A stretch of DNA of 64,000 bases from Gammaproteobacteria bacterium (GTDB taxonomy: Bacteria; Pseudomonadota; Gammaproteobacteria; SZUA-152), in the NCBI GenBank assembly GCA_021647505.1, contig JAKIUN010000007.1, positions 1 through 64,000 of the forward strand, given 5' to 3'. A program made the position numbers and the translations under genes. The notes below the pieces were generated by a model. That model worked only from the letters and a program-made list of their open reading frames with translations. It did not search any database and was not told the DNA's origin. The stretch's first letter is position 1. Every line of letters starts with the position of its first letter. Of the stretch, positions 16,148-57,650 are shown piece after piece.

Positions 16148-16314
16148 GCAGCCCTACCCAATGTCATTAAGTTAACAAAATCACGACTGTTTTGTAGGTT
16201 GGCGGTGACGAAGGAACCCCAACATTGTTAGCTTCGTTGGGGTTCGCAGGCTCACCACCAACCTACAACAAGCAGGATCTCAGGCTTAACTTAATGGCAT
16301 TGCAGTCCTACCCA
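16148..16314. mobile_element. MITE-like element, copy 1
   Basis: A 142-bp core (16160-16301) begins AATGTCATTAAGTTAA and ends TTAACTTAATGGCATT, near-perfect terminal inverted repeats. It is flanked by 12-base direct repeats GCAGCCCTACCC and GCAGTCCTACCC. The centre is a palindrome of the GTAGGTTGG...CCAACCTAC type. The same core occurs inverted at 57497-57638 with about four differences. It has no coding capacity, which fits a non-autonomous transposable element. Confidence 0.8.
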
Positions 16315-28439: not shown

Positions 28440-28655
28440 CAGGCAGGCCTCTGCCCGGATTTGCTGCTCTTTCAGGACACATTCTTGAGCCGTGGGCGCG
28501 GCAACAGCTTTGATATCGCCAGCCTTACCGTTGCTTTTTCCGCAACGGGGCCGGTGGATTCACAAATAATTAATACCGCCACCGACTTTGCCGCCTCCAG
28601 CGGTATCCCCGTCACCACTGTCACCCGCAGAAGCCAAATTACCAAAGTCCGCACC

Positions 28656-30002
28656 TCACGCTTCCGGATGTTCATCGGCGGCCTGAATTTTCTCCGCCCA
28701 GGCAAGGGTCTTTTCAATAATCGATGCTCGATTGAGCGTGGTGAGTTCGCGCGCCTTGAGCAAATGCCGACCGGCCACCCAGACGTCGCTGACCTGTTCA
28801 CGCCCGGCGGCGTAGATCAATTGTGAGATGGGGTGGTAGACGGGCTGCGTCTCCAGTGCGCCGAGGTCGACGGCGGTGATATCGGCGGACTTACCGGGTG
28901 TGAGGGAGCCGATGGTATTGTCGAGGCCCAGCGCGCGTGCGCCGCCGAGGGTGGCCATGTGCAGGGTCTGGGCAGCGGTTACGGCGCTGGCGTCACTGGC
29001 GACGGCCTTGGCCAGCAGGGCGGCGCTGCGCATTTCGCTGAACATGTCGAGGTCATTGTTGCTGGCGGCGCCGTCGGTGCCCAGGGCCACGTTGATGCCG
29101 GCGTCGAGCAGTTTCTGTACCGGGCAGAAGCCACTGGCCAGCTTGAGATTGGATTCCGGGCAGTGCACGACGCTGGCGCCGCTGCTGGCGAGGTGGGCGA
29201 TTTCACTGTCGCTGAGCTGGGTCATATGCACGGCGGCCAGGCGCGGCGACACCACACCCAGTTGGGTCAGGCGCGCCAGGGGACGCAGGCCGCTCTGGGC
29301 GCTGGCTTCGTCGGCCTCGTGGGCGGTCTCGTGCACGTGCATGTGGATGGGTAGATCCATTTCCTCGGCGTAGGTGACCATGCGCTCGAGGGGCTCGTCG
29401 GAGACGGTATAGGGTGCATGCGGTGCAAAGGCGGTGTGGATCAGTGGGTGGTGACGGTAGTGGTCGTGCACCTCGATGCCCTTGTGCAGGTAGTCATCGG
29501 CATTGGCCGCCCACACGGTGGGGAAGTCGATGAGGATCAGGCCGACCATAGCGCGTATGCCGGCGTTGTCGGCGACACGGGCAGTTTCGTCTGGGAAGAA
29601 ATACATGTCGTTGAAGCAGGTAGTGCCGCCGCGCAGCATTTCGGCAATGGCCAGGCGGGTGCCGTCGGCGACGAATTCGGGGCTGATCCATTTTCCCTCA
29701 GCGGGCCAGATGTGGTTCTGCAACCAGTCCATCAGAGGCAGGTCGTCGGCGAGGCCGCGGAACAGGGACATGGCGGCGTGGGTGTGGGCGTTGACCAGAC
29801 CGGGGATCAGGGCGTGGCCGTCGAGGTGGTGCTTGACTCCAGCCCGATACTTTTCGCTAGCCTTAACACTGGGCAACAGTTCGACGATGCGCCCTTCGTG
29901 GATGGCGACGGCGTGGTGCTCCAGTATTGTGTTGTGGGGTTCGACCGGAATGACCCAGCGGGCGTGGATCAGGGTGTCGATGGTTTCAGGTGTCGTTTGC
30001 AT
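28656..30002 (-). CDS. mtaD: 5-methylthioadenosine/S-adenosylhomocysteine deaminase family amidohydrolase
   Basis: A TRZ/ATZ-type amidohydrolase of 448 residues. Metal ligands are visible in LVNAHTHAAMSLFRG, HMHVHETAHEADE and LGTDGAASNNDLDMF, with the intermediate HCPESNLKLASG. Such enzymes deaminate methylthioadenosine, S-adenosylhomocysteine or related adenosines. It stands divergently next to mtnA, as in Pseudomonas, which supports a place in methylthioadenosine salvage. The ATG at 30002 (MQTTPETID) is chosen for homology; no good ribosome site is visible. Exact substrate is not provable from sequence. Confidence 0.88.
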   Translation of the reverse strand: MQTTPETIDTLIHARWVIPVEPHNTILEHHAVAIHEGRIVELLPSVKASEKYRAGVKHHLDGHALIPGLVNAHTHAAMSLFRGLADDLPLMDWLQNHIWPAEGKWISPEFVADGTRLAIAEMLRGGTTCFNDMYFFPDETARVADNAGIRAMVGLILIDFPTVWAANADDYLHKGIEVHDHYRHHPLIHTAFAPHAPYTVSDEPLERMVTYAEEMDLPIHMHVHETAHEADEASAQSGLRPLARLTQLGVVSPRLAAVHMTQLSDSEIAHLASSGASVVHCPESNLKLASGFCPVQKLLDAGINVALGTDGAASNNDLDMFSEMRSAALLAKAVASDASAVTAAQTLHMATLGGARALGLDNTIGSLTPGKSADITAVDLGALETQPVYHPISQLIYAAGREQVSDVWVAGRHLLKARELTTLNRASIIEKTLAWAEKIQAADEHPEA

Positions 30003-36223: not shown

Positions 36224-36294
36224 GCCACAGAGGCACAGAGTACACTGAGGAAAAATAAAATTGTTTTTCTCTGTGTACTCTGTGCCTCTGTGGC
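36224..36294. repeat. Long hairpin repeat between serC and serA (family D-like)
   Basis: GCCACAGAGGCACAGAGTAC on the left is answered by GTACTCTGTGCCTCTGTGGC on the right, with an A/T-rich loop. The stem exceeds 20 bp. It starts nine bases after the serC stop. Confidence 0.85.
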
Positions 36295-40948: not shown

Positions 40949-41034
40949 CGTAGGTTGGGGTGAGCTTGCGAACCCCAACGATGCGGCTTCGGCCAACCCC
41001 GCTTGTTGGGGTTCGTGCCTCACCCCAGCCTACG
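40949..41034. repeat. Palindromic intergenic repeat, family A
   Basis: CGTAGGTTGGGGTGAGCTTG and CGTGCCTCACCCCAGCCTACG are opposed, with GCGAACCCCAAC/GTTGGGGTTCG inside. It fills the tyrA-aroA gap. The same sequence type forms the centre of the MITE-like elements. Confidence 0.85.
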
Positions 41035-42398: not shown

Positions 42399-42475
42399 GT
42401 TGGGGTGACGAAGGAACCTCAACAAACGGAGTTCGATACCCGCACATGTTGGGGTTCCTTCGTCACCCCAACCTA
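42399..42475. repeat. Palindromic intergenic repeat, family A
   Basis: GTTGGGGTGACGAAGGAACC and GGTTCCTTCGTCACCCCAAC are perfect arms. They occupy most of the aroA-cmk gap. Confidence 0.9.
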
Positions 42476-42492
42476 CCATGTGGATATAGATT

Positions 42493-48428: not shown

Positions 48429-48554
48429 GGCATTATCATCTTGAAAGAGTACGACCCCTGCCTCCTACCGCACGAGGTTGCCGAGTGCTACAATCAGACG
48501 CTTTATTCATCAGGCTTAGCGGTGAATGGCACTGACTGACAGCCTGATACTACT

Positions 48555-48631
48555 GTCATCCCGGCGCAGGCCGGGATCCAGAACTAACAATTATTGCTAC
48601 TTCCCTGGATTCCGGCCTGCGCCGGAATGAC
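48555..48631. repeat. Palindromic intergenic repeat, family E
   Basis: GTCATCCCGGCGCAGGCCGG and CCGGCCTGCGCCGGAATGAC form opposed arms with GATCCAG/CTGGATTC inside. A degenerate relative lies at 56994-57066. The 425-base gap before manC holds only this and the terminator. Confidence 0.8.
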
Positions 48632-48783
48632 GGGTGAAAGTGGCTGGATGGGAATTTCAACTTACAGTAAACGCTATTCAGCTCATGGACACTTTCGTCT
48701 GCAATGTACCCTGCCGCCTGAATAATCTTGTTCCTCTTATCGATGCCCTTAAACCTAAACTTAAACCTAAGCTATTAAACATC

Positions 48784-51504: not shown

Positions 51505-51591
51505 CGTAGGTTGGGGTGAGCCTGCGAACCCCAACAAGGAGGGCTGTCAAATCTCCGCTGTTGGGCTTTGTACCTCAGCCCAACCTACACG
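51505..51591. repeat. Palindromic intergenic repeat, family A
   Basis: CGTAGGTTGGGGTGAGCCTG and CCTCAGCCCAACCTACACG are opposed. It lies 14 bases past the metK stop and immediately before the riboswitch. Confidence 0.85.
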
Positions 51592-51603
51592 CTTTTACAC
51601 ATT

Positions 51604-51677
51604 GTCTAAGGAGCGCTGCAGCGGAACATCCGCCAGGCTTAGGTCAATGCAAGCATTTGTTTCAACGGCGTTCATTC
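51604..51677 (+). ncRNA. S-adenosylhomocysteine (SAH) riboswitch
   Basis: CTAAGGAGCGCTGC, GCGG-aaca-tCCGC, CAGGCTTAGG and CAACGGCGTTC match the conserved core of the SAH riboswitch: P1 (CTAAG with CTTAG), P2 (GCGG with CCGC), an A/T hairpin (ATGCAAGCAT) and the pseudoknot in which GAGCGC pairs with GCGTTC. It lies 61 bases ahead of ahcY, the classical target. The known class turns expression on when SAH is bound. Confidence 0.9.
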
Positions 51678-51684
51678 AAGCTGC

Positions 51685-57484: not shown

Positions 57485-57650
57485 GGGTAGCGTCCCAATG
57501 CCGTTAAGTTAAGCCTGAGATCCTGCTTGTTGTAGGTTGGTGGTGAGCCTGCGAACCCCAACGAAGCCAACAATGTTGGGGTTTCTTCGTCACCGCCAAC
57601 CTACAAAACAGTCGTGATTTTGCTAACTTAATGACATTGGGTAGCGTCGT
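57485..57650. mobile_element. MITE-like element, copy 2 (inverted)
   Basis: The 142-bp core (57497-57638) is the reverse complement of 16160-16301 with about four substitutions. It is flanked by GGGTAGCGTC on both sides (57485-57494 and 57639-57648), a 10-bp direct repeat. Both copies share CTACCC beside the core when read in the same orientation. The 370-base gap between the MqsA-like gene and the polysaccharide locus holds otherwise only A/T-rich sequence. Confidence 0.85.

Follow-up and report, generated by a model that had tools for sequence, protein, structure and literature searches.

The element and its copies in the genome

The window analysed here, a stretch of 64,000 nucleotides at the start of contig JAKIUN010000007.1 of a Gammaproteobacteria bacterium (assembly GCA_021647505.1), carries two copies of a short repeated element. 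Copy 1 (16159-16302, + strand) is 144 bp long, beginning with CAATG and ending with CATTG. It is bounded by a left terminal inverted repeat (TIR) at 16159-16175 (CAATGTCATTAAGTTAA, + strand) and a right one at 16286-16302 (CAATGCCATTAAGTTAA, read on the - strand), and lies within a target-site duplication (TSD) whose halves, CAGCCCTACC on the left (16149-16158) and CAGTCCTACC on the right (16303-16312), are equal at 9 of 10 positions. Copy 2 (57496-57639, - strand), also of 144 bp, has the opposite orientation and shows 4 mismatches with copy 1 over the 144 aligned bases. Its TSD (57486-57495 and 57640-57649; CGACGCTACC/GGACGCTACC) is likewise equal at 9 of 10 positions. Each copy encloses a REPIN-like core, located at 16194-16266 (+ strand) in copy 1 and at 57532-57604 (- strand) in copy 2; that of copy 1 is made of two GTAG-tagged REPs in inverted orientation, forming a long hairpin. 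The 144 bp have no coding content.

An earlier note on this DNA had described a MITE-like element present twice in inverted arrangement, with near-perfect TIRs, and both observations are borne out. It had also delimited a core of 142 bp between direct repeats of 12 bases. The true borders are those of a 144-bp element with a 10-bp duplication, the terminal C and G being part of the element (CAATG...CATTG) at nearly every copy in the genome. The duplication is taken to be of 10 and not 12 bp because a width of 10 gives matches in most of the 32 copies, whereas widths of 8, 9, 11 and 12 mostly stay at chance level.

The further copies that the earlier note proposed to look for exist by the dozen. 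A sequence search of the genome gave 70 matches, both strands being counted as the element is nearly palindromic, and the TIR pattern with one mismatch allowed gave 69 hits, against 0 for the reversed pattern used as a control. Among the 47 loci scanned, 32 copies have both ends recognisable. The TSD count took in the copies with both ends and enough flank, and left out those whose ends are truncated or bear indels (e.g., L014, L022, L024, L027, L029, L030). At a width of 10, the duplication is identical at all ten positions in 13 of the 32 copies and at eight or more in 26, while a clear TSD is absent from six. The motif CTACCC, previously suggested as a target preference, does stand beside both copies of the window. 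As a general target rule it was dropped, since the 32 TSDs support it weakly, showing a weak G at position 1 (23/32) and C at position 10 (22/32), that is, a weak G...C symmetry.

Empty sites had also been anticipated, and one was found within the genome: the flank of locus L019 corresponds to the target of L006 with a single TSD, 30 of 31 bases being identical across the junction. The genus provided no orthologous one for copy 1, as the upstream region occurs in all six other genomes of the genus and the downstream side was matched in none of them. Several copies depart from the standard form. Some are truncated at one end or at both (C38:12873, C54:10664, C54:35991), and one is 165 bp long instead of 144, the additional 21 bp being due to a 7-bp tandem repeat. 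In L059, L060, L062, L064 and the second element of L026, the hairpin inside is flipped with respect to the ends. Matches to the element are present in 20 of the 40 genomes searched, comprising the genome itself, its relatives and members of the class.

Short, non-coding, multi-copy and provided with TIRs and a 10-bp TSD, the element is a MITE. This reading is supported by the many further copies, their TSDs, the intragenomic empty site and the IS4-family transposases found between identical or nearly identical TIRs in other genomes.

Terminal repeats shared with IS4-family elements and other MITEs

A search for a transposase associated with the same terminal repeat, as recommended in the earlier note, led to IS4-family elements in other genomes. 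A family-level relative (G016) carries an IS of 1440 bp (L081) with CAATGCCAGTAAGTTAA at both ends, one TIR mismatch, and a duplication equal at 9 of 10 positions (AGTCTGTCCC/AGTCTGACCC). Its transposase scores 166 bits against NF033592, for a cut-off of 115, and contains the stretch YHLRWGVEENYKRLK, in agreement with YREK, the signature of IS4-family transposases. In Ca. Thiomargarita nelsonii, both ends of the element L323 match the TIR exactly, and the element has an 11-bp repeat (ACCCTACGGCT). Its transposase gene is frameshifted, the two parts scoring 104.5 and 27 bits against NF033592, under the cut-off. The proteins of L081 and L323 share 35% identity. An IS4 element on a Sulfurospirillum plasmid has CACTACCATTAAGTTAAGC, very similar to the TIR of the MITE, at both ends and is flanked by 11-bp repeats, while the ends of an IS from Pedobacter (L309) show 1-2 mismatches and no duplication was seen around it. 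The predicted structure of the L081 transposase (mean pLDDT 37) was set aside, and a phmmer search of the PDB gave nothing but chance hits to polybromo.

None of the PF01609/NF033592 transposases fetched from the own genome sits between the TIRs of the MITE, and an intact parent IS with these TIRs was not found in this assembly. An isolated IS-like end occurs at C18:9277; by eye, it resembles the end that lies beside a transposase fragment in a relative of the same genus (G001). On contig C18, an ORF that looks, by eye, like a HicB antitoxin (L069, 1600-2016) adjoins an isolated IS-like end with the MITE TIR, whose partner end was not found.

Since the transposases of the G016 relative and of Thiomargarita are enclosed by ends identical or nearly identical to those of the MITE, the mobilising machinery is, as judged from sequence, that of the IS4 family, and a transposase of this family probably moved the copies of the present genome. 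The IS4-family ISs, ISPa1635 among them, and their MITEs resemble this system by a TIR of the CAATGYCAT... type, an NF033592 transposase and a duplication of 10-11 bp; the MITE differs from the ISs in that it codes for nothing. ISPa1635-like ends (the name being that of a plasmid annotation) begin with CAATGTCATCAAC and differ from the MITE TIR at 4-5 of 17 positions.

The distribution of these ends was explored in 84,980 species, each represented by one genome: a scan for exact TIRs paired at a distance of 117-147 bp gave at least 117 stretches. The matches listed come from Thiomargarita and other Thiotrichaceae, other Gammaproteobacteria, Bacteroidota, Desulfobacteraceae, Clostridia and a bin of Planctomycetota, it being understood that bins may be contaminated. 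Their interiors fall into 32 groups by shared 10-mers. With one representative per group, 25 of these 32 groups among the matches listed fold better than shuffles (z < -2) and the other seven do not. In the present genome, the interior hairpin is of a kind that the host also carries as a dispersed repeat; to judge from known repeat types, the hairpins in the other hosts are presumably dispersed repeats of their own as well. Of 395 evenly sampled Bacteroidota genomes, only one, the centre genome itself, has an exact-TIR element between 95 and 155 bp long, so that the element appears patchy and rare per species. Two scans of viral contigs gave 0 and 1 stretches with paired TIRs, and a literature search with the letters of the TIR returned nothing on this topic, judging by titles.

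One MITE already described may be related. According to Flood 2016 (PMC4853749), the hupL MITE of Ca. Thiomargarita nelsonii has hits on 260 of 439 contigs, and no parent for it was found in ISfinder. It resembles the present element by its 10-bp direct repeats and by inverted repeats of 19 bp that share one base with the direct repeats. The paper links it to a PD-(D/E)XK (YhgA) gene, whereas a genome of the same species contains an exact-TIR IS4 element. Going by this description, the hupL MITE probably belongs to the same TIR family.

The REPIN interior and the lone hairpins

Folding of the whole element gives -35.3 kcal/mol (z = -7.8), and the core of copy 1 is an inverted pair of GTAG-tagged palindromes, i.e., a REPIN. 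Related repeats occur outside the element, on the + strand of the window, at 40950-41033 and 51506-51588 (lone REPINs) and at 42399-42476 (a lone REPIN-like hairpin), all three being devoid of TIRs. The earlier note had reported the same type of hairpin at 40949, 42399 and 51505. The hairpins do exist, but they are similar and not identical to the MITE core (e.g., GTAGGTTGGGGTGAGC vs. GTAGGTTGGTGGTGAGC) and represent a slightly different variant of it. Across the genome, 48 hits were obtained with a REP pattern of 20 bases, mostly within MITE copies with a handful standing alone, as read by eye from their positions. The lone REPIN at 51506-51588 is directly followed, on its downstream side, by an SAH riboswitch (51602-51680; RF01057, 49.4 bits). 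The window also contains inverted repeats unrelated to the MITE at 36224-36294 (31-nt arms, 94%) and 48540-48646 (42-nt arms, 79%).

Two origins had been envisaged for this resemblance: a dispersed hairpin captured inside a mobile element, or lone hairpins that are the decayed centres of that element. Decay of this kind does occur, as the truncated copies without one or both ends (e.g., C38:12873) illustrate, and it holds for some pieces elsewhere. For the three hairpins of the window it is very unlikely, and they were rejected as decayed centres: besides being of a different variant, they have no TIR remnant within 60 bp, the best candidates showing 7-9 mismatches over 15 scored positions, as do random 60-mers. 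Capture fits better, since the lone hairpins bear no trace of TIRs and the same TIRs surround unrelated hairpins in other genomes. An even less probable alternative is that the whole unit is a REP/REPIN moved by a RAYT (a tyrosine HUH transposase), the outer inverted repeats being an extension of the REPIN. The GTAG tag and inverted pair of the core, the lone REPINs and the 24 matches to Y1_Tnp in the genome, a group that contains RAYTs, are all in its favour. It is opposed by the 10-bp target duplications, as the HUH group, RAYTs included, is not known for such duplications, and by TIRs that are common to IS4 elements and to MITEs with unrelated interiors. Thus, the REPIN is most simply regarded as a passenger drawn from the repeats of the host. 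REPINs and GTAG-type REPs with their RAYTs, as described in PMC3733652, share with this system the GTAG-tagged palindromes, the inverted pairs and the presence of tyrosine transposase genes in the genome; the difference is that the REPIN is here enclosed within IS4-type TIRs and has spread with target duplications.

Other arrangements of REPs and TIRs were observed. Contig C100 of the present genome holds, at 28494-28602 and 29409-29621, a shortened MITE copy with only one REP near a RAYT-like gene fragment, and in another genome (G004) a RAYT-like gene lies near a flank similar to that of this shortened copy. A Thiomargarita genome (G044) contains shells of 57-65 bp (C90:28205-28261, C285:771-834, C165:13267-13331), which consist of the TIRs and spacers of longer copies without the REP hairpin. 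On contigs C134 and C84 of the same genome, a different hairpin is nested within the REP arms.

Element lengths and overall interpretation

The lengths of the elements cluster near 89, 101, 111, 121, 131 and 142 bp, in steps of approximately one helical turn (about 10.5 bp). In the range 117-147 bp, the 120 elements among the matches listed measure 117-123, 129-136 or 139-146 bp, with none at 124-128 or 137-138 bp. When each interior group has one vote, the 32 group modes give R = 0.66 at a period of 10.5 bp, a value above all 20000 uniform draws; a coarser grouping that includes the own family and other loci (23 groups) gives R = 0.76, and when the range is widened to 85-147 bp (26 groups), R is 0.61 (p = 0.0001), all these values applying to the matches listed. 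The best-fitting period in these sets is 10.9-11.6 bp, not exactly 10.5. These statistics take a flat distribution as the null, and related elements are not independent of one another in length. For shorter elements, 48 genomes searched for lengths of 57-117 bp yielded 75 distinct elements with peaks at 89-90, 101 and 111 bp. The 66 of 85-117 bp give R = 0.585, most of them coming from two genomes and belonging to few interior types, and the nine under 85 bp form no ladder. No ladder in the same phase is seen among the 77 elements of 148-208 bp in the matches listed (R = 0.21, p = 0.046, in a different phase), a set that excludes 80 forward matches from Thiomargarita; elements of Lutibacter and Flavivirga, at 156-160 bp, are off the ladder. 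A helical-step dependence of the IS50/IS1 type is seen from 85 to 147 bp and not above 148 or below 85 bp.

Such a ladder is known from a eukaryotic excision system. According to PMC3464196, the IESs of Paramecium have a ladder of about 10 bp in their lengths below 150 bp, explained by the looping of short DNA between the ends, and the same helical dependence was measured for IS50 (Goryshin 1994) and IS1 (Lane 1994), both as cited there. The likeness lies in the ladder of lengths; the elements concerned here are MITEs of bacteria, which have a single conserved TIR in common and differ in their unrelated interiors. Our literature search, which left most subscription journals out of its reach, found no earlier report of a ladder in natural bacterial MITEs. 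The ladder is what would be expected if transposase-bound ends, carried by DNA below the persistence length, had to face the same side.

The same lengths could also reflect a few successful lineages and uneven sampling, with no physical constraint. This is a rather unlikely explanation, though the most serious of the alternatives. In its favour, related elements share lengths, the scan gave only the matches listed (at least 117 stretches) and there is no ladder above 148 bp or below 85 bp. Against it, the ladder holds under two clusterings of the matches listed (R = 0.66 for 32 groups, R = 0.76 for 23), and the shifts in length seen within groups amount to roughly one turn or two (120 to 141 bp, 135 to 146 bp); for example, two copies in one genome, L132 (120 bp) and L138 (141 bp), differ by 21 bp. 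The dependence measured in IS50 and IS1, as cited in PMC3464196, also argues against it. An active role of the interior hairpin, which might aid transposition, for instance by extruding as a cruciform and so drawing the ends towards each other, is less probable still. Hairpins are found in 25 of the 32 unrelated interior groups among the matches listed, which suits such a role, but the other seven do without, and a cruciform would take out most of the spacer and hence the need for a phased total length.

The preferred explanation as a whole, to which we give a probability of about 80%, is that of an IS4-family MITE with a REPIN passenger from its host and with lengths phased between 85 and 147 bp through end synapsis. 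An IS4 transposase would bind both TIRs, excise the element and paste it at a new site; insertion duplicates 10 bp of the target. The transposase would act in trans, its IS having since been lost or being missing from this assembly. The hairpin would be a passenger taken from the host's own stock of repeats and multiplied by the IS4 machinery. We propose that a transposase can pair the two ends of so short and stiff a helix only when they point to the same side, and that amplification is for this reason largely restricted to copies whose length is a whole number of turns.

As a MITE of the IS4 family that carries a REPIN, the element is of a known kind; the novelty lies in a hairpin cargo that is interchangeable and in the ladder of helical steps. 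A broader generalisation seems to us to have slightly better than even odds: in several phyla, one strongly conserved pair of IS4-type ends would multiply any hairpin repeat of the host, only lengths of about a whole number of turns would amplify, the sizes of MITEs would constitute a genome-scale helical-twist experiment, and IS4 MITEs would represent a second route for REPINs besides RAYTs. The finding provides a parent family for widespread and poorly explained bacterial repeats, to which the abundant MITEs of the hupL type in giant sulphur bacteria probably belong, and suggests that an unrelated transposon can multiply REP hairpins. Through the ladder, the physics of transposon end synapsis, hitherto measured on engineered elements, would become readable from genomes.
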